From NCBI RefSeq assembly GCF_000802205.1, contig NZ_CP012850.1, positions 1,426,001 through 1,490,000 of the forward strand: a stretch of 64,000 bases of DNA. The letters run 5' to 3'. Below, piece after piece: positions 5,236 through 34,959 of the stretch (the stretch's first letter is position 1; each line of letters opens with the position of its first letter). The DNA is from Candidatus Nitrosocosmicus oleophilus. Its GTDB lineage: Archaea > Thermoproteota > Nitrososphaeria > Nitrososphaerales > Nitrososphaeraceae. A program made the translations under genes and the position numbers. The notes beneath the pieces are model-generated. The model saw only the letters and a list, made by a program, of their open reading frames with translations, was not told the DNA's origin and did no database searches.

Positions 5236-6942
5236 TTAATCTACTTTTACTTCACCAACCATTGAAGGGTGATAAATGCAATAGTACTGGTATTCACCGG
5301 AATCATCAAATTTAAAGCTGAAATATTGGTTGGATATTATTGCACCTGAATCAAAGACTTCTCCTGCATCCTTGTCATTATCTTGTCCTGAGGTTACTGT
5401 ATGGGATATAGTATCGCCGTTATACCATGTAATTGTTTGACCTTTTTCTATTGAAATAGGATTAGGAGAGTAGGAACTATCACCATTTATTCCTACTATG
5501 ACTGCAGGAACAGAATTGTCATTCTGAGAATTGATTTGATCATTATTGTCCAACTGTTCTTGTTGCTGACCTTTAGTTGTTGTACCGATGGAGGCTGTGC
5601 TAGTCCAATTTGTTATATTACCAGAAGAAGGCAAGATTCTAAATAGAGAACCAGTATAACTTAAAACATACAGGTATCCATCTGGACCTGTTTGTAGGTC
5701 TGTTATACCGCCAAAACCTTGACCAAATACTATGGGTTGATTTTCTTTGGGGTCGTTAACTTCTCTATCTGCAAGTGGTCCTGTATTTTCTGCATATCCA
5801 TTATCAAAGGATAGGTCATTTCGTGCTTCATTAAGAACAAATCGATACAAAAGACCATTATTTATGTCGCCTACAAACATGTTATTCTGATATCCTGTTC
5901 CTAACTTACTGGAATTCAAGAATTCCAATGCTGTAACGCCTATTGGTGTAACCCAAGAGAATTTTGGCTCAGAATATGATCCTTTCCCAAAATATACCAA
6001 GTCATCAGGTGTTGCTCCAGTAACCATAAAATCATTCTTTGAAAATCCTTGAATCAATGACCAACCGCTATTAAAGCCGGGATAGACTAAATTGATTTCA
6101 TCGCCCGCCGTCGGACCATTCTCAGTATCCCATAGATTACTGGTCACGGGATCAAAGTCCATACCAAAACTGTTGCGAATACCCATTGCATAGTACAAAT
6201 TAAGAGGGGATTCATCGCCAAATATGACATCGCCCTTTACGATATCGCCATCCTGAGTAACTCTGAGTACACCGCCAAGTCCATTTGGCTCTGGACCATC
6301 TTCAATATTCTGTGCTTGGGTCCTATGTCCTCCCACTTCTCCTACTATGTAGTAGACGTTATTATCCGGACCAATTCGGATTTTGCCTCCATTGTGCTCT
6401 CCTCTACCATTATCTGGAATTGCAGTAAGATCTAGTAGCAGAGTAGGATTTTCCAGTTGCCCGTCAACGTATTCATAACGATATAATCTATTACCTGATG
6501 GGTCAACATTGTCTTCAAAATCGCTACCATCTGCATCGTTGCCTGATTCAGTATAAGATAGGAAAACATAGATTTTTCCATCTGGTTGTTTTGCTAAAGC
6601 AATACCTAGTAAACCTCTTTCTATGTCAGTAGCCACAGATACATCAATTGCTGGAGTATCCTGTATCTGACCATCTATAACATGCATTACCTTCCCGGTT
6701 TCTTTTTCAGTGACCAGAATATCGTTAGGTCCTAAAAATGCCATACTCGTAGGCTTTTCTAATCCGTCGGTTACTTTTTCCACCTTGAGCACTTTATCTT
6801 TTACAGTGGGTCCATTGGGCGCTACAGGAGCTTTAGCATATGCTCCATAGGATAAATTAATCGTAGAATAATTTGAATAAAATAATAAAAATATGCAAAG
6901 AGCAGATAAAACAAATAATTTACTACTTGTTTTTTTTAGCAA
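5236..6942 (-). CDS. PQQ-type sugar dehydrogenase fused to a cupredoxin domain
   Basis: A 568-residue exported protein. A signal peptide covers about residues 1-35. A glucose/sorbosone dehydrogenase-type beta-propeller spans about 50-440, with TDGLEKPTSMAFLGPNDILV, ERGLLGIAL, GEHNGGKIRIGPDNNVYY (the His matches the catalytic base of soluble glucose dehydrogenase) and MGIRNSFGMDFDP. An Asn/Gln/Thr-rich linker (about 445-490) leads to a C-terminal cupredoxin with type 1 copper ligands SHTVTS, C555, H558 and M561 (YYCIYHPSMVG). The family oxidises sugars or aldoses using PQQ; the fused blue-copper domain would be a built-in electron acceptor (inference). The start is TTG at 6942, because a TAG lies two codons upstream in frame. 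Whether the host makes PQQ cannot be judged here. Confidence 0.85.
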   Translation of the reverse strand: MLKKTSSKLFVLSALCIFLLFYSNYSTINLSYGAYAKAPVAPNGPTVKDKVLKVEKVTDGLEKPTSMAFLGPNDILVTEKETGKVMHVIDGQIQDTPAIDVSVATDIERGLLGIALAKQPDGKIYVFLSYTESGNDADGSDFEDNVDPSGNRLYRYEYVDGQLENPTLLLDLTAIPDNGRGEHNGGKIRIGPDNNVYYIVGEVGGHRTQAQNIEDGPEPNGLGGVLRVTQDGDIVKGDVIFGDESPLNLYYAMGIRNSFGMDFDPVTSNLWDTENGPTAGDEINLVYPGFNSGWSLIQGFSKNDFMVTGATPDDLVYFGKGSYSEPKFSWVTPIGVTALEFLNSSKLGTGYQNNMFVGDINNGLLYRFVLNEARNDLSFDNGYAENTGPLADREVNDPKENQPIVFGQGFGGITDLQTGPDGYLYVLSYTGSLFRILPSSGNITNWTSTASIGTTTKGQQQEQLDNNDQINSQNDNSVPAVIVGINGDSSYSPNPISIEKGQTITWYNGDTISHTVTSGQDNDKDAGEVFDSGAIISNQYFSFKFDDSGEYQYYCIYHPSMVGEVKVD

Positions 6943-24409: not shown

Positions 24410-24441
24410 TAACGATTTTAAAGAATATAATATTTAACAAC

Positions 24442-25438
24442 TGCTTTGTCGCCTAACTCAACATATTTAGCTGGAATGAACAGATTGATTATTTGTGATA
24501 GACTGGCCCTCTTACAATCGCTCATTAGTTCAACGCGGTGAGATCCTCTTCTCGTATGATTTCCTTGATGGTTGGGGTTCAGAGATAGAGAATATGAATA
24601 TAAACAAAAAGGGTAAACCATTTGTATTTCCAGATTCTTTCATCTTGGCCATTGGTTACATTCGCTATTTATTTCACCTACCATACAGACAAACCCAAGG
24701 TATAATTAAGGCCACAGGAAAAAGGTTACCTGCTAATCCACCAAGTTATGGTCACATCTGTAAACGAATCAACAAGCTAAACATCGATATTAAAAGAGAC
24801 AAGATGGATGACGATGATGACCTAATAATATCAATAGACAGTACAGGTATCAAGATTACTAACAGAGGTCAGTAGATGGATGAGAAATGGAATACACAAA
24901 ATAGAAAAGGATATCTCAAGATCCACGTTGCTGTAGACATAAAGACCAGGAAAATCATTGCTTTGGAAGTGACAGATGAGAAGGTACATGATGGGAAAAT
25001 GCTAAAGAAACTAGTCAATCATGTTTTGGATTCGAGAGAACCAAACACTGTAAAGATAAAATCGGTACTAGCTGATGGAGCCTATGATTCAAATCCAAAC
25101 TTTGTGTATCTTGAGGACAAAAAGATCAATCCAGGTATAAAGGTAAGAAGGAACTCTATTGTTTCTCCTAAAAACAATAGGTTAAGGAACAACGAAGTAA
25201 AGTTACAAGCAAAGGATCTGTTGAAATGGAAGACAAAAAGAAAATACGGACAGAGATGGATATCTGAAACTGTGTTCTCAGCTATAAAGAGAATGTTTGG
25301 TGAATACACATCAGCAAACAGGTTTCAAAACATGGTAAAGGAGATCATGATAAAAGTATCATTGTATAACATTTTTAGAAGAATATAACATGATGATCAT
25401 GATGATAACCGGAGAATAAGGAATTATGCAACAAAGCA
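24442..25438 (+). mobile_element. IS5-family-like insertion sequence, copy 1 (transposase broken)
   Basis: 997 bases bounded by imperfect inverted repeats (TGCTTTGTCGCCTAACTC left; TGCTTTGTTGCATAATTC read inward from the right). A 9-base direct repeat, TTTAACAAC, flanks it at 24433-24441 and 25439-25447. It appears identical to copy 2 (33816-34812) apart from one coding change. An 8-9 base target duplication fits the ISH1/IS903-like branches of IS5. The target overlaps a small palindrome (ACAACAAA-T-TTTGTTGT at 25444-25460). Confidence 0.88.
24495..25388 (+). pseudogene. Transposase with a nonsense codon (copy 1)
   Basis: Same frame as the intact transposase at 33869-34762, but codon TAG at 24873-24875 replaces TGG (base 24874 is A, where 34248 is G). 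The stop falls just after the first catalytic Asp block (IISIDSTGIKITNRGQ), so the N-terminal piece lacks the other two active-site residues. A restart at ATG 24876 would give the C-terminal 170 residues only. Confidence 0.9.
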
Positions 25439-25707
25439 TTTAACAACAACAAATTTTGTTGTAAAGAAGGACAGTTTGATTCGATAATCATGATTTACAA
25501 ATTGATGCGAACCACAAGAAATACTCCTTTTATACCTATTACATATTCAAATTAAATGGATGAACCAGAAATTGAGCAGAAGAGTTCGAGTACCTCTTAT
25601 CAATAGACTAAAAGTTGTTAAAAGCAAATTTGCGCATTGGGTCAATATTAGTTTGGGTTGAAATCTCTTATACCTAGTTATATTATTCCATTAGTAATAT
25701 GATATCG

Positions 25708-26286
25708 TTACTTTTCTAATGATGCACTTGACTTGAGTGTATTGGATATCTTTTCTGCGTGAAAAGCATCTGTCAGAGCTACTTCTGTATTAACATCTCT
25801 TATGGTTTGATCCGCAAATGATGTTGCAAATTGAATCACGCCTGACTCACCTAACACAAATCCTTTTTGAATAGTTGATGTTTTCAAAAGGGTTCCTTCA
25901 GGATTATACACTTTCATGACCCCATCCATATGGGTGTTTACTAGTGCAGGATCATTTGTTTTATAATCTGCAAGAACTTTTAGTTGGTTATTATCACTAT
26001 TTGTCAATGGGGCAAATTTTATAGAGTTTAGTTGAATTGTTATCTTATCCTGTGAGTTTGAGGTATCATTCCGTTGTTGGGCCTGTGGGAATTGTGCATA
26101 TACATCGTTATTAATCCCAAAATTCTCGTTATTAATGACGACAGATAGCGAAATTATCAATGTAATTGTAATAATGACGGTCGCTATTTTTGAGTTAGTA
26201 GTGAATGCTAACCTTCCGCATTTATAGTATGTAGTATGTATGTTTCTTGGTAACACATTTGTTATATCTTTTATATTTACAGGCAT
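25708..26286 (-). CDS. Exported hypothetical protein
   Basis: 192 residues. A 37-residue cytoplasmic-type lead precedes a membrane/signal segment (ATVIITITLIISLSVVI) and a DVYAQ cleavage-like site. The mature part (KITIQLNSIKFAPLTNSDNN, QLKVLADYKTNDPALVNTHM, GVMKVYNPEGTLLKTST) looks like a small beta domain of a kind repeated in related genomes. No function is known. Confidence 0.6.
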   Translation of the reverse strand: MPVNIKDITNVLPRNIHTTYYKCGRLAFTTNSKIATVIITITLIISLSVVINNENFGINNDVYAQFPQAQQRNDTSNSQDKITIQLNSIKFAPLTNSDNNQLKVLADYKTNDPALVNTHMDGVMKVYNPEGTLLKTSTIQKGFVLGESGVIQFATSFADQTIRDVNTEVALTDAFHAEKISNTLKSSASLEK

Positions 26287-26635: not shown

Positions 26636-27553
26636 TTAGATCAAATCCAACAGCCTTATCACAATAAAGTCATTATCATGGAGATACTTCATTTCCGCCT
26701 TGAATAGTTCAATGCTTGTAGTGTAAAAGCCACTCTCCTTATCAATATCATGGTATATTAATACAGGTATAGATCGTATCTCATTACCTTTATTGTATTT
26801 ATTCTGGCTTTCAACAACCTGGATAAACTTTTGTAGCATCTGGCTATCGTCATATCCTTTTGCTTCTCTATCCGCATCATGGCTCCAACCAATAATTGAA
26901 TATCTGCCATCCTTATTGATGTCATTACCCAAAGAAGAACAACTTATCTTATTCATCATTGTGTATGAACTACCTATTTGACATTGAAGGAATTCCAGTG
27001 GATCGTTACCCGTTCTTGCCAAATCATAGTGTTTGGAAACCTCCTTCAGTATAAAAGGATCATCCGATCCTCCATTTTTTGGATATGTGAATACTCTGAC
27101 CTCTTTGACGCCATTATCCAATAGACATTCTTTTGACTCGCTTATTTCGTATTCTGAGACGTTATTGGGTACATCTTCCAGTTTAATATGATTCATAGAA
27201 TGAGAGCCTATATCATATCCTTCTTTTTCTAACTGCACTATGTCATTCCAGTTTAATTCATCACTCTTTGAAACATTATTACATATAATAGCAAAAGTTG
27301 CAGTATAGTTGTATCCGTCAAGTATTGGTTTTGCATTAGTTATTTGCCCCTTCTTTCCATCATCAAATGTAATAATGGCTAGTTTTTTTTCATCTCTTTC
27401 AGGTGCGTTCTCGGGCGTATTTATTGCTGCTTGATTGCTTTTATTGTCTAGAGTGCCATTTGCGTTTAGAACTATACTTTTATCCAACGTATTATCGAAT
27501 AAGGAATTAATACCAATTGGAATTAAGAATAGAAGTATTACCGTTATCAACAT
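26636..27553 (-). CDS. Polysaccharide deacetylase (NodB-fold)
   Basis: About 305 residues from the ATG at 27553 (TTG 27571 is also in frame). A signal/anchor precedes the NodB domain: KKLAIITFDDGKKGQ with the Asp pair, then YDIGSHSMNHIKLED with the two zinc-binding His residues (about H124 and H128 by the longer count), and VFTYPKNGGSDD. The C-terminal IPVLIYHDIDKESG is usual in the family. It removes N- or O-acetyl groups from extracellular polysaccharide. With the epimerase-like protein 2 kb away it suggests surface glycan tailoring (inference). Confidence 0.85.
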   Translation of the reverse strand: MLITVILLFLIPIGINSLFDNTLDKSIVLNANGTLDNKSNQAAINTPENAPERDEKKLAIITFDDGKKGQITNAKPILDGYNYTATFAIICNNVSKSDELNWNDIVQLEKEGYDIGSHSMNHIKLEDVPNNVSEYEISESKECLLDNGVKEVRVFTYPKNGGSDDPFILKEVSKHYDLARTGNDPLEFLQCQIGSSYTMMNKISCSSLGNDINKDGRYSIIGWSHDADREAKGYDDSQMLQKFIQVVESQNKYNKGNEIRSIPVLIYHDIDKESGFYTTSIELFKAEMKYLHDNDFIVIRLLDLI

Positions 27554-27571
27554 ATTTCTAAAAACTATCAA

Positions 27572-28081
27572 TCCACTTTAGAATTATTAATTTACCTTAT
27601 AAGTTCATCTTTTAGTAGTGAGAAACAATGAAACAGGGTATCAAATCACCCACTTTTCTTTAGAAATAAATGGACAACTAGAAATATTGCTCTAGTATTA
27701 AGATGAACTTTGAAAAAATTTTTTAAAATATGGCTAATTTAGAAAGTTATAGATTATCAAGGATTGTACTATGATCTAGAATAGAATCTTATTCCAATGA
27801 CATAGAAAATCATTTTTGATTATAACACCCTATTCAATTGTAATTATTTCTGAAAAGGTCATACTTTACATTTGATACTTTTGGACACTCTTTCCCCAAA
27901 TAACAAACCAATCGAGAATGATATGATATATATCACAAGAAAATTAAAGTTATTGTGAATACTTTATCCTTTATTAAATTGTCTTATTAACGACTAATGA
28001 TGTTTTTCTTAGCATTACGAGTTAACATTTAACGTTATAGTAATAAAGATAATAAATAAAACTGACACCATAATAAATTCT
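27572..28081. other. Gap with dispersed repeat
   Basis: Only copy 2 of the 37-base repeat (27980-28016) was noted. Confidence 0.45.
27980..28016 (+). repeat. Dispersed 37-bp repeat, copy 2
   Basis: GTCTTATTAACGACTAATGA then TGTTTTTCTTAGCATTA; see copy 1 at 11344-11380. Confidence 0.6.
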
Positions 28082-28402
28082 CTAATTTGCTTTAACTCCA
28101 GGCAAGTTTTCAAAAGAACTTTGAACTGCTTCCATATCATTTGCTACACTGTGACTCAACTCCACATCGTCTATCACCTTTTGATTACAAACTAATTGTA
28201 TTGTAGTATTACTAGGTACTGGATTTTTGTCAATTTGCTGAGTATAACAATTGTTAAAGACCAACGATGTCAAGCCTTGATCTGTAGGATCAGCGTAGTT
28301 TGGAACTAATAGTGGCTCTCCGTAAGCGATTGAATAAGCAGAAAAGAGGAATACAAAACATGCTATGAATATGAGTTGATAGTTTCTTATTTCTCTATTC
28401 AT
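28082..28402 (-). CDS. Small exported protein
   Basis: 106 residues from the ATG at 28402 (a longer frame from 28471 would bury the signal). The signal peptide YQLIFIACFVFLFSAYSIAY is followed by a soluble part with two cysteines (FNNCYTQQIDKNPVPSNTTI, QLVCNQKVIDDVELSHSV). The family is unknown. Confidence 0.55.
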   Translation of the reverse strand: MNREIRNYQLIFIACFVFLFSAYSIAYGEPLLVPNYADPTDQGLTSLVFNNCYTQQIDKNPVPSNTTIQLVCNQKVIDDVELSHSVANDMEAVQSSFENLPGVKAN

Positions 28403-28471
28403 TTGATAGTGGTTTTTTCTTAAAAAGTTATTAATCTTTAGATCCGGAAATCGTAGAGTACGGAAGATCAA

Positions 28472-28957
28472 CCGATGATGATTTCAATGCTTTTATGACT
28501 TTTAATCACATGATGAAGCAAGGTATTACAACTCTGTGTAGTGCTGAAACTTCAAGTAAGTGCACTAAGGTGACCATCCCTATTATTCATAAATCAAGAC
28601 ATAATTCAATTATTAGGATGATTAAAGATGATACTCTCGTATTAAAAAACCAAAGGATAAGTTGAGTATGGTTTAGGACATCTAACTCATTCTATCCTGT
28701 GTCTGATAAAGTAATATGAAAATATACCAAAAAATCTGAATGTTCTAACGATTTAACTATGGTAAGACTATTGTATATCAAATGATTATCGGTAGTTTGG
28801 AAAGGTATGTCTGTGTCGTCAAATCTATTTGTTTCTAATGTTGAGACGTTATCTCTGTACGGATCTACTAATTACGTAATCGTAATATGGTTTTATCTAT
28901 CACGTTCCAAACCTCTTCTTGCTAATCACCTTTACAAGACTAACTATCTTGGCAAAA
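28472..28957. other. Intergenic
   Basis: Nothing supported. Confidence 0.4.
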
Positions 28958-29311
28958 TCATTCTATCTTGAGTGTAAGATCACTGTATTCGACTATTTTC
29001 CTCTCAACCTGGACGTATATAATCTCCAACAGTTCCAAGCCAGCCGGCTCAATGAAATATTTTTTTTCGATCCCGTTATACGATATGAACGAACTATTTA
29101 ACAAATAGTAAATGTATTCTCTCAGAACCAATTCGGATGTTAGGACCACCCTCTGTAGGCACCGATCAATTTCAGAGAATGATGAACCATCAATGCATGT
29201 CAGTAATATTGGTTCTATAATAACTACCTTGAGGTAAACTGGATCAGGATTATTATTATTATTATTTGTGCATTCGTGATTCATTATGGTATTTACCACA
29301 TTTTGTCTCAT
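28958..29311 (-). CDS. Winged-helix regulator (ArnR1-like)
   Basis: 117 residues. VLREYIYYLLNSSFISY and KKYFIEPAGLELLEIIY match the recognition-helix and wing pattern of archaeal ArnR1-like winged-helix proteins (L-x2-Y-L...Y...T-x-G-x-x-F/L-L). An N-terminal Asn-rich stretch precedes it. Its ATG directly follows the TAG of the epimerase-like gene, so the two are co-transcribed. A role in controlling that gene is likely but inferred. Confidence 0.6.
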   Translation of the reverse strand: MRQNVVNTIMNHECTNNNNNNPDPVYLKVVIIEPILLTCIDGSSFSEIDRCLQRVVLTSELVLREYIYYLLNSSFISYNGIEKKYFIEPAGLELLEIIYVQVERKIVEYSDLTLKIE

Positions 29312-30529
29312 CTACACAATAGTGTTATTTGATATTTCATTGGTCCCTTGTGAATCATCGCTTTCTTCGATTCCTTCTGTAGCATTGGTTAAGGTGTTGT
29401 TATAGACTTTATTTCCGATAGAGTTATGATATAGATAGATTCCTTGACTCTCACAATTACTGATGTCATTATCATAAACTTCGTTGTTTGGCGATTGAGA
29501 TAAGAATATACACTTTTCCTCGTCGTGAACATCGTTATTTCTAGCAACAGAATCAGACATATTTCTACTAAACATGATTCCAGACCCTGCACTGTTATAT
29601 ACTTCATTACCTTCGATTGTAATATTGTAACAATCAAGTGAGCATATTATGCCCATTGCACCATGGTCATGCACTGTGTTGTTCCTGATAATCATATCAT
29701 GAGTTGCAGTATGGGGGTCAAAACCATACATAAAGTTATCATGAACATTATTATCTTCTAAAACTACACCACCTACACCAACGGAATAAAATCCAAACCG
29801 GTCATGGTGAATCTCATTATTCTTTACTATACTTGTTCCATTGTTTCCGTAGTAACTAATACCAGAACAACCGCTACCGCATTCATAACCTAGATAAGCA
29901 ATTTCAGAATTGGTAATATTCATTGTTCCAGAAGTTTCATCTTCTGTTTTTATGTAAGGTCTTGGTATAGCATCGATACCGGTATGCTCAAATTCTCTGC
30001 TAGGGAGTATGTCAACTTCAAACTTTATAACATCATTGTTCTTAGGATCCCATGAAGTAATTTTTACCGAATCTATAATTAAATTACCAAAAACCGTAAT
30101 AGAGTTCACAATATCTCGGTCACCATCACCGTTCTTATCTCCAGCTAATATCTTGAGCCATTTGGTATCACTCGAATTAATCACAAGTGTTGAATCTTTT
30201 TCGACTATTATGGTTGCATCTAATATCCAAGTACTTTGATTGGAATTATTTTCTCTATTTAGAATCTCTTGATTTTGAATACTATTGTATATATCGGTAA
30301 GAGTTGTAGGATGTGAGCAGGACACAGTAATCGTGTTTTTACCATTTTCCTCGTCAGTATTATAACCAATACAGTCAGTATTACTACTTTTATCACTACT
30401 ATCACTATTTTGATCAGGCTCCTGAGCGAACGACGCGATATTTATTAAACCAAGTCCGCTGAATGTTAATATGATAACGAAAACCGATACAAAACACGTT
30501 GCTGAAATGAAACTCGCTAGCCGTTTCAA
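29312..30529 (-). CDS. Secreted parallel beta-helix protein, mannuronan C5-epimerase-like
   Basis: 405 residues from a TTG (an in-frame stop lies upstream and no ATG is nearby). The signal peptide ends SFAQ. Residues about 200-400 form repeated NNxIxxN coils of a right-handed beta-helix (TSIVKNNEIHHDRFGFYSV, NITIEGNEVYNSAGSGIMFS). The segment YGFDPHTATHDMIIRNNTV (D271, H273, H277) closely resembles the catalytic DPH region of AlgG-type mannuronan C5-epimerases. HGAMGIICSLDC and SGIMFSRN follow as in that family. It probably epimerises or cleaves an extracellular uronic-acid polymer. NosD-like helix proteins are the main alternative. Confidence 0.72.
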   Translation of the reverse strand: MKRLASFISATCFVSVFVIILTFSGLGLINIASFAQEPDQNSDSSDKSSNTDCIGYNTDEENGKNTITVSCSHPTTLTDIYNSIQNQEILNRENNSNQSTWILDATIIVEKDSTLVINSSDTKWLKILAGDKNGDGDRDIVNSITVFGNLIIDSVKITSWDPKNNDVIKFEVDILPSREFEHTGIDAIPRPYIKTEDETSGTMNITNSEIAYLGYECGSGCSGISYYGNNGTSIVKNNEIHHDRFGFYSVGVGGVVLEDNNVHDNFMYGFDPHTATHDMIIRNNTVHDHGAMGIICSLDCYNITIEGNEVYNSAGSGIMFSRNMSDSVARNNDVHDEEKCIFLSQSPNNEVYDNDISNCESQGIYLYHNSIGNKVYNNTLTNATEGIEESDDSQGTNEISNNTIV

Positions 30530-33519: not shown

Positions 33520-33804
33520 ATGACCTCATATATTTACATTAATTTTATCTTGAATGTGAAGGCCCTGACAAACTTTGTGATATTGCAGTTGATGCTTCAG
33601 CAAAATTTCTCAAACACAGATAAGTCGAATATTTATGGAGTAGATTTTTTCTATTCAGGATTACATTTTCCAAGGATTGATGAAAGTAATTGTATTAGCT
33701 GCATTCTCTTACCCAGCAATAAATTTGATCAAGTTAATGATTATCTCACTATGATTGACAACCTTTTGGATCAATTAGATATGATGATTAATAAACTAAA
33801 ATAA
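33520..33804 (+). CDS. Hypothetical protein just upstream of an insertion sequence
   Basis: 94 codons. The C-terminal half (DFFYSGLHFPRIDESNCISC, LLPSNKFDQVNDYLTMIDNL) has coding-like composition, reminiscent of a small ligand-binding domain. The N-terminus looks random, so the true start may be internal or the gene truncated. Insertion sequence copy 2 lies about a dozen bases after its stop and does not interrupt it. Confidence 0.35.
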   Translation: MTSYIYINFILNVKALTNFVILQLMLQQNFSNTDKSNIYGVDFFYSGLHFPRIDESNCISCILLPSNKFDQVNDYLTMIDNLLDQLDMMINKLK

Positions 33805-33815
33805 GAATTGCCAAA

Positions 33816-34812
33816 TGCTTTGTCGCCTAACTCAACATATTTAGCTGGAATGAACAGATTGATTATTTGTGATAGACTGGCCCTCTTACAATCGCTCATT
33901 AGTTCAACGCGGTGAGATCCTCTTCTCGTATGATTTCCTTGATGGTTGGGGTTCAGAGATAGAGAATATGAATATAAACAAAAAGGGTAAACCATTTGTA
34001 TTTCCAGATTCTTTCATCTTGGCCATTGGTTACATTCGCTATTTATTTCACCTACCATACAGACAAACCCAAGGTATAATTAAGGCCACAGGAAAAAGGT
34101 TACCTGCTAATCCACCAAGTTATGGTCACATCTGTAAACGAATCAACAAGCTAAACATCGATATTAAAAGAGACAAGATGGATGACGATGATGACCTAAT
34201 AATATCAATAGACAGTACAGGTATCAAGATTACTAACAGAGGTCAGTGGATGGATGAGAAATGGAATACACAAAATAGAAAAGGATATCTCAAGATCCAC
34301 GTTGCTGTAGACATAAAGACCAGGAAAATCATTGCTTTGGAAGTGACAGATGAGAAGGTACATGATGGGAAAATGCTAAAGAAACTAGTCAATCATGTTT
34401 TGGATTCGAGAGAACCAAACACTGTAAAGATAAAATCGGTACTAGCTGATGGAGCCTATGATTCAAATCCAAACTTTGTGTATCTTGAGGACAAAAAGAT
34501 CAATCCAGGTATAAAGGTAAGAAGGAACTCTATTGTTTCTCCTAAAAACAATAGGTTAAGGAACAACGAAGTAAAGTTACAAGCAAAGGATCTGTTGAAA
34601 TGGAAGACAAAAAGAAAATACGGACAGAGATGGATATCTGAAACTGTGTTCTCAGCTATAAAGAGAATGTTTGGTGAATACACATCAGCAAACAGGTTTC
34701 AAAACATGGTAAAGGAGATCATGATAAAAGTATCATTGTATAACATTTTTAGAAGAATATAACATGATGATCATGATGATAACCGGAGAATAAGGAATTA
34801 TGCAACAAAGCA
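33816..34812 (+). mobile_element. IS5-family-like insertion sequence, copy 2 (intact)
   Basis: 997 bases, the same ends as copy 1 (24442-25438), flanked by an 8-base direct repeat TTGCCAAA (33808-33815 and 34813-34820). It has a single transposase gene. Near identity of the copies shows very recent movement. Confidence 0.9.
33869..34762 (+). CDS. DDE transposase, IS5 family-like
   Basis: 297 residues from a GTG; an in-frame TGA three codons upstream fixes the start. The N-terminal DNA-binding part includes YRQTQGIIKATGKRLPANPP. The catalytic triad is visible as D in IISIDSTGIK, D in SVLADGAYDSN and E in RWISETVFSAIKRMFGEY. Basic residues are common, as in IS5 transposases. It cuts and joins the element ends and can act on both copies in this window. 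Confidence 0.9.
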   Translation: MIDWPSYNRSLVQRGEILFSYDFLDGWGSEIENMNINKKGKPFVFPDSFILAIGYIRYLFHLPYRQTQGIIKATGKRLPANPPSYGHICKRINKLNIDIKRDKMDDDDDLIISIDSTGIKITNRGQWMDEKWNTQNRKGYLKIHVAVDIKTRKIIALEVTDEKVHDGKMLKKLVNHVLDSREPNTVKIKSVLADGAYDSNPNFVYLEDKKINPGIKVRRNSIVSPKNNRLRNNEVKLQAKDLLKWKTKRKYGQRWISETVFSAIKRMFGEYTSANRFQNMVKEIMIKVSLYNIFRRI

Positions 34813-34959
34813 TTGCCAAATAAAGAATAAGAAAGAAGTTTGTTCAGTATTTAAACCGGTTTTAGAAACAATTAGAAGGACGATGTATCATCTGGTGGGT
34901 TCACTGATGATAACGCCGGATCACCCTATTGTATCTGCGGAGAGTGACAATTCGAGAAT

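Follow-up and report, generated by a model that had tools for sequence, protein, structure and literature searches.

A putative exported AlgG-type epimerase and a nearby deacetylase gene in the ammonia-oxidising archaeon Candidatus Nitrosocosmicus oleophilus

The genome of Candidatus Nitrosocosmicus oleophilus (3.43 Mb, single contig, NZ_CP012850.1) contains, within a 64-kb stretch that was analysed as a whole (positions 1,426,001 to 1,490,000, referred to as the window), a gene for a right-handed beta-helix protein that resembles AlgG both in its fold and in the residues of its active site and is clearly nearer to it than to NosD. Judged from its sequence and a structural model, the protein is probably, though by no means certainly, an exported C5-epimerase of the AlgG type that acts with an altered active site on a polyuronate or aminouronate glycan. 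A sequence-only reading of the window had grouped the gene with those of a winged-helix regulator and a NodB-type polysaccharide deacetylase; all three open reading frames (ORFs) were found again in the ORF list of the window with the same coordinates and on the same strand (Table 1).

Similarity of the beta-helix protein to AlgG and NosD

The Pfam matches of the beta-helix protein are generic (Beta_helix, 8.3e-20; NosD, 4.2e-17), and its best sequence match in the PDB is AlgG (8e-14). A family profile (A1) built from 33 homologues matched AlgG at 2.5e-29 over profile positions 64-371, so that the similarity extends beyond the repeats alone, and matched AlgE4 at 1.7e-16 and NosD at 1.8e-6. An AlphaFold2 model of the protein was obtained with a mean pLDDT of 86.2 and a pTM of 0.83, and the first four Foldseek hits of this model were all AlgG. 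Superposition by VIA-align brought the whole right-handed beta-helix onto AlgG, a periplasmic mannuronan C5-epimerase (PDB 4nk6), with Z 42.8 over 332 residues at 2.1 Å, followed by a tailspike (Z 29.9), AlgE4 (29.8) and NosD (26.5; PDB 7o0y); the same fold is seen in the RbmB and PL6 lyases with Z of about 25-26. Profile, Foldseek hits, superposition and the conserved Tyr, Asp and His residues described below support the AlgG-like identity put forward in the sequence-only reading. The two proteins also differ. They are ~22% identical, the archaeal protein has DPHT where AlgG has DPHD, it carries the additional cysteines Cys53, Cys71, Cys296 and Cys300, and its gene lies in an archaeal host, with no alginate gene recognised next to it.

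NosD, with which the protein has a parallel beta-helix in common, was ruled out as the closest characterised relative since AlgG is superior in both profile and fold; the closer match to NosD-type helix proteins that had been considered as a point against the AlgG assignment did not appear. For Nitrosocosmicus, a nosD gene has been reported as part of the unique core genome and tentatively tied to nitrous oxide reductase (excerpts of PMC11559005). In keeping with this label and with the Pfam match, the protein could be a NosD-type factor aiding the maturation of a copper enzyme, but this appears very improbable: AlgG is far ahead in profile and fold, the DPH site is conserved, whereas the other NosD-hit proteins of the genome are devoid of it, and no NosL match was found in the genome by a search in which 2 of 14 controls were positive. 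A search of the genome for a NosZ propeller gave no match, but as no control was positive either, it is uninformative. The published 'nosD' may be the beta-helix gene, one of several NosD-hit genes in the genome, and the 'nosD' reported for Nitrosocosmicus may denote a glycan epimerase and not be a sign of nitrous oxide reductase maturation.

Conservation of the active site

The charge-neutralising arginine of AlgG is taken here to be Arg345, a number that fits the 45-residue offset giving Tyr314 and the D317A entry. Residue numbers relative to AlgG follow this offset, in agreement with the D317A entry and Tyr314 in excerpts of PMC4444821. The roles presumed for AlgG in the same excerpts are proton removal by the histidine of the DPHD motif, binding of a water by Tyr314 and neutralisation of the carboxylate by an arginine. 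For AlgE7, His154 has been proposed as the base and Tyr149 as the acid, and Asp178 and Glu155 are the proposed calcium ligands of AlgE (excerpts of PMC8824271). Counterparts of AlgG Tyr314, Asp317, His319 and Ser344 and of an upstream Arg are present in the archaeal protein, and the YGxDPH site is likewise shared with the AlgE-type epimerases AlgE4, AlgE6 and AlgE7.

Conservation was evaluated in 78 archaeal homologues, deduplicated on the last 120 residues after exclusion of weak hits and of fragments shorter than 250 aa. Tyr, Asp and His of YGxDPH are retained in 76 of the 77 homologues that cover the site, and Tyr248, which aligns with the Tyr of AlgG GFY, is retained in 76 of the 78, bearing out the DPH catalytic context noticed in the sequence alone. 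The sole exception at the YGxDPH site (L150) has lost the motif and is fused to a PMT-like membrane region. As an internal control, the remaining seven beta-helix frames with NosD hits in this genome were inspected; none of them carries DPH, and the YGFDPH motif is therefore not a chance feature of beta-helices. In two family members, L150:1-2658 and L250:3294-5978, the beta-helix part is preceded by a large N-terminal region, which is PMT-like in L150, and both have lost the DPH site.

Table 1. Coordinates of the three genes and of their sequence motifs in the window.
Feature	Window position	Strand	Description	Basis
AlgG-like right-handed beta-helix protein	29312..30529	-	405 aa; predicted exported; N-terminal hydrophobic helix, residues 4-26	ORF, Pfam, profile, model, fold search
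Arg190	29960..29962	-	shared by AlgG and 78/78 archaeal homologues; candidate for neutralising the carboxylate	alignments
YGFDPH motif	29711..29728	-	residues 268-273; Tyr268 = AlgG Tyr314, Asp271 = Asp317, His273 = His319	alignments
CSLDC	29630..29644	-	residues 296-300; Leu298 at AlgG Arg345 position; Cys296 and Cys300 nearly invariant among archaeal members	alignments
Winged-helix protein	28958..29311	-	117 aa; Sso10a-like fold	ORF, model, fold search
CE4 (NodB-type) polysaccharide deacetylase	26636..27571	-	311 aa; N-terminal hydrophobic segment	ORF, Pfam
CE4 motif TFDDG	27356..27370	-	residues 68-72	motif reading
CE4 metal motif SHSMNH	27188..27205	-	residues 123-128	motif reading
CE4 motif LIYHDI	26744..26761	-	residues 271-276	motif reading

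Related loci, synthase genes and the predicted glycan

With the beta-helix protein of the window as query, 26 of 61 genomes matched at E <=1e-10, all belonging to the family of the source organism; the profile search matched 46 of 400 genomes of the class, 42 inside that family and four outside. A tree of 81 sequences united all archaeal members, plus one Bdellovibrionales sequence, in one group (support 100/99), with AlgG and the Moranbacteria and Chloroflexi sequences outside it; several long branches were flagged in this tree. In a second tree of 35 rows including deeper members, L249 grouped with the bacterial sequences at weak support (86/23), so that finer placement is uncertain. The Bdellovibrionales sequence (contig L222:5911-7200) is an archaeal-type family member divergent from a DUF2334 gene, possibly resulting from a transfer from archaea.

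The strongest argument for the family acting on a uronic-acid polymer is its linkage to genes for GT2 glycosyltransferases and nucleotide-sugar dehydrogenases. Of the 20 beta-helix ORFs listed from deeper archaeal relatives, seven (L247, L249 and L252-L256) directly follow a GT2 gene on the same strand, the two genes overlapping or standing no more than ~40 nt apart; three of the seven linked GT2s and the Moranbacteria sequence had been included in the GT2 profile, so that L253-L256 represent the independent profile hits. Tyr, Asp and His are kept in five of the seven GT2-linked members, and the Arg345 position holds Arg in L249 and, as in the window protein, Leu in L252-L255. Locus L249 carries a nucleotide-sugar dehydrogenase (TIGR03026, 206.8 bits), the GT2 synthase and the epimerase in a row. 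In Moranbacteria (L226), GT2 and epimerase form a single ORF (AlgG model, 4.5e-40) behind a sugar dehydrogenase, and the dehydrogenase is also present at the Chloroflexi locus L230. As to the uronic-acid polymer synthases for which the sequence-only reading suggested a search, cassettes of GT2 synthase and epimerase occur in related archaea, and the host genome encodes, elsewhere on the chromosome, a GT2 that is 33% identical over 475 aa to the L252 GT2.

The N-terminal part of the beta-helix ORF in L252-L256 and L258 showed weak PF01522 matches (8e-6 to 4e-3). A CE4 domain fused to the epimerase was rejected after our own CE4 profile and hhalign were negative in the five N-termini tried; the region is without DD and H..H motifs and is at best a degenerate NodB-like domain devoid of the catalytic Asp or His.

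We also considered that the protein is a polysaccharide lyase, or a lyase and epimerase in one, in which the same His/Tyr site would eliminate across the glycosidic bond and turn over a polyuronate matrix. One active site serves both reactions in AlgE7 (excerpts of PMC8824271), and the RbmB and PL6 lyases share the fold. Nevertheless, we regard a lyase as unlikely. AlgG, by far the best fold match, is an epimerase; the lyase determinant of AlgE7, Arg148 beside the Tyr (same excerpts), is Met267 here and Arg in only 4 of the 78 archaeal sequences; and the GT2-linked relatives suit synthesis, not degradation.

Several findings weigh against the epimerase assignment. The cut-off of the NCBIfam AlgG model NF038177 (700 bits) was missed by a wide margin (60.9 bits, E 8.6e-17). 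When the catalytic positions of AlgG singled out in the sequence-only reading were compared in alignments, counterparts were found for Tyr, Asp and His but not for Arg345, which is replaced by Leu298; among the 78 homologues this position is occupied by 57 Leu, 6 Lys, 4 Ala, 4 Val and one each of Thr, His and Met (74 with a residue, four gaps) and in no case by Arg. The alignments further place Ser297 at Asp178 and Thr274 at Glu155 of AlgE, so the calcium ligands that distinguish the AlgE-type epimerases are absent as well, and with neither Arg345 nor these ligands one catalytic element is unaccounted for. Tyr, Asp and His are kept in only 8 of the 18 deeper members examined, and thus members without the site exist. 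In the examined flanks of the 78 closer homologues and of the window gene, no cassette-type GT2 or dehydrogenase was observed; the synthase argument is therefore not directly transferable to the window. The only full-length nucleotide-sugar dehydrogenase found in the genome (see below), the one of four PF03721 matches that was scanned, is not AlgD-like.

The beta-helix, winged-helix and deacetylase genes do not form a tight operon. The deacetylase gene, described in the sequence-only reading as about 2 kb away on the same strand, is separated from the beta-helix gene by 1,741 bp and from the winged-helix gene by ~1.4 kb, with a 129-aa ORF of no known family between it and the winged-helix gene.

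With Arg345 lost, the protein might also have descended from AlgG without remaining catalytic and serve as a secreted beta-helix for binding or guiding the surface polysaccharide. In several deep relatives no DPH motif is left at all, and a role of AlgG in polymer formation separate from its activity is indicated by the title of a reference in PMC4444821. Such a protein seems fairly unlikely to us, as a dead site would not be expected to retain its Tyr, Asp and His in 76 of the 77 closer homologues.

An active epimerase would be expected to act at the cell surface, after polymerisation, on a glycan of uronic acid (or N-acetyl-aminouronic acid). By homology, the glycan chain would lie in the groove of the beta-helix, His273 would abstract the proton at C5, and a proton would come back from the opposite face, supplied by Tyr268 or by a water bound to it, with Asp271 presumably shaping the site. 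The carboxylate would have to be neutralised otherwise than in AlgG or AlgE; the invariant Arg190 is the best candidate, and its conservation led us to propose, as a guess, that it stands in for Arg345. The archaeal family represents a natural set of putative enzymes in which the charge-neutralising Arg of AlgG is replaced.

The sequence-only reading had suggested an alginate-like polymer or another uronic-acid exopolymer. Four PF03721 matches were found in the genome, one of which is by Pfam a full-length nucleotide-sugar dehydrogenase with three domains that is unlinked to the locus; its best equivalog is the archaeal UDP-ManNAc dehydrogenase (230.7 of 750 bits). No gene resembling a GDP-mannose dehydrogenase appeared among the four matches, of which this one was scanned further; alginate as such therefore lacks support, and a strict alginate pathway was rejected. 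No alginate synthesis gene was recognised beside the beta-helix gene, AlgX, AlgJ, Alg44, AlgK, AlgE and AlgL not having been searched for. The UDP-ManNAc-type dehydrogenase and the nearby CE4 N-deacetylase led us to consider a polymer of N-acetyl-aminouronate, which we infer to be at least as likely as alginate.

Nitrosocosmicus has been reported to be without a canonical S-layer and to have an uncharacterised outer glycan layer (excerpts of PMC11559005 and PMC12448741); in Nitrosocosmicus franklandianus, canonical S-layer genes are absent and a granular putative extracellular polymer is described (excerpts of PMC12448741). That a soil ammonia-oxidising archaeon encodes a putative secreted protein built like AlgG hints that these archaea tailor an acidic slime polymer. 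Given that relatives of this predicted epimerase are linked to synthase genes in other ammonia oxidisers, an epimerised acidic polymer would be expected and can be searched for directly. Extending this, we tentatively propose that ammonia-oxidising archaea might make a polyuronate or N-acetyl-aminouronate exopolymer by a cassette of GT2 synthase and AlgG-type epimerase, and that the Nitrosocosmicus branch might use a separate epimerase in trans, beside a deacetylase and with a third mode of carboxylate neutralisation, a model that could well be correct but goes further than we would assert. The available excerpts of a review place such epimerases only in bacteria and brown algae, with the word archaea absent (PMC4444821), and no AlgG-type epimerase of ammonia-oxidising archaea is described in the parts consulted of the open-access literature searched, which, with subscription journals largely outside, is weak evidence of novelty.

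The deacetylase, the winged-helix gene and their surroundings

The assignment of the third gene as a NodB-type deacetylase proved correct. It matches PF01522 at 4.7e-18 (65.8 bits, cut-off 23.1) and, like the CE4 deacetylases of the PdaB, PgdA, NodB and PgaB group, has complete TFDDG, H..H and LxH motifs as well as a WSHD stretch, whereas it remains far under every curated equivalog cut-off. The protein would probably strip N-acetyl groups from the same glycan as the epimerase or from a related one. Only one further CE4 gene is present in the 3.43 Mb. It is located ~600 bp from a PgaC-like GT2 (198 bits, cut-off 422) on the same strand (G000:C1:3132400-3135500, L240), and this pair may constitute a poly-N-acetylhexosamine locus, in which case the genome may also make poly-N-acetylhexosamine.

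A partnership of deacetylase and epimerase is plausible but unproven. CE4 genes occur within 2 kb of the epimerase in 6 of the 78 loci, all on the same strand, compared to ~0.2 expected from a background of 54 CE4 genes in 64.9 Mb; the chance of three or more is ~0.001. In this estimate, the densities of CE4 and glucose/sorbosone dehydrogenase genes derive from 23 genomes of the family, with 14 genomes outside it excluded, and the loci come partly from other genomes. Three of the CE4-linked loci had been noticed before counting, and the six, belonging to few genera, are not independent and reflect no more than three or four separate CE4 events.

Alternatively, the three genes could be functionally unrelated and merely close together between two copies of an insertion sequence (IS), a real possibility even though we rather doubt it. 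The gaps of 1.4-1.7 kb, the complete relatives G005 and G007, which have the beta-helix gene but no CE4 match, and the frequent location of winged-helix relatives elsewhere argue for it. On the other hand, in other genera CE4 genes lie 254-352 bp upstream of the epimerase, the host genome has only two CE4 genes, and in the sister genome G013 the contig with the beta-helix gene breaks off at window position 28315 and the one with the deacetylase gene starts at 27646, consistent with the same order as far as the contigs reach.

The ATG of the winged-helix gene (29311) directly follows the TAG stop of the beta-helix gene (29314-29312), as the sequence-only reading had described. The model of the winged-helix protein (pLDDT 82.9) matched Sso10a first, with 1r7j and 1xsx as top Foldseek hits. 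What it shares with Sso10a is the winged-helix fold (E 1.7e-3 and prob 1.00, with 75 columns aligned at 31% identity), whereas the 60-bit cut-off of NCBIfam NF053610 was not reached by the window protein (14.9 bits). Its inclusion in the set was only partly sustained: the fold is Sso10a-like, but close pairing with the epimerase, observed in the window, in G013:C70, in G012:C389 and partly in G012:C4, is limited to close relatives, and most relatives are located elsewhere. The protein may regulate the pair of epimerase and deacetylase, a role that we infer.

Among the other neighbours of AlgG-like genes, glucose/sorbosone dehydrogenases occur within 2 kb in 10 of the 78 loci, against 1.0 expected. 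A further one forms a fusion with the epimerase (L203:514-3099); in L220:3857-6534 the AlgG-like gene lies 27 nt from one. The window itself encodes such a dehydrogenase with a plastocyanin domain at 5236-6942, and PF07995 matches number 21 in the host genome and 2-23 per genome in the genus. A secreted-looking 192-aa protein without Pfam family is encoded at window positions 25708-26286; in 5 of the 78 loci, relatives of this protein are encoded no more than 1 kb from the AlgG-like gene. These relatives and the glucose/sorbosone dehydrogenases are frequent neighbours of AlgG-like genes; neither reveals the substrate.

The two IS copies (window positions 24424-25440 and 33798-34814; 1,017 bp, same strand) are 99.3% identical. 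A composite transposon formed by the flanking copies was considered and rejected: their short flanking repeats, judged by eye, differ, and they are thus taken as separate insertions. The transposase ORF of the copy at 24424-25440 is interrupted by a stop.

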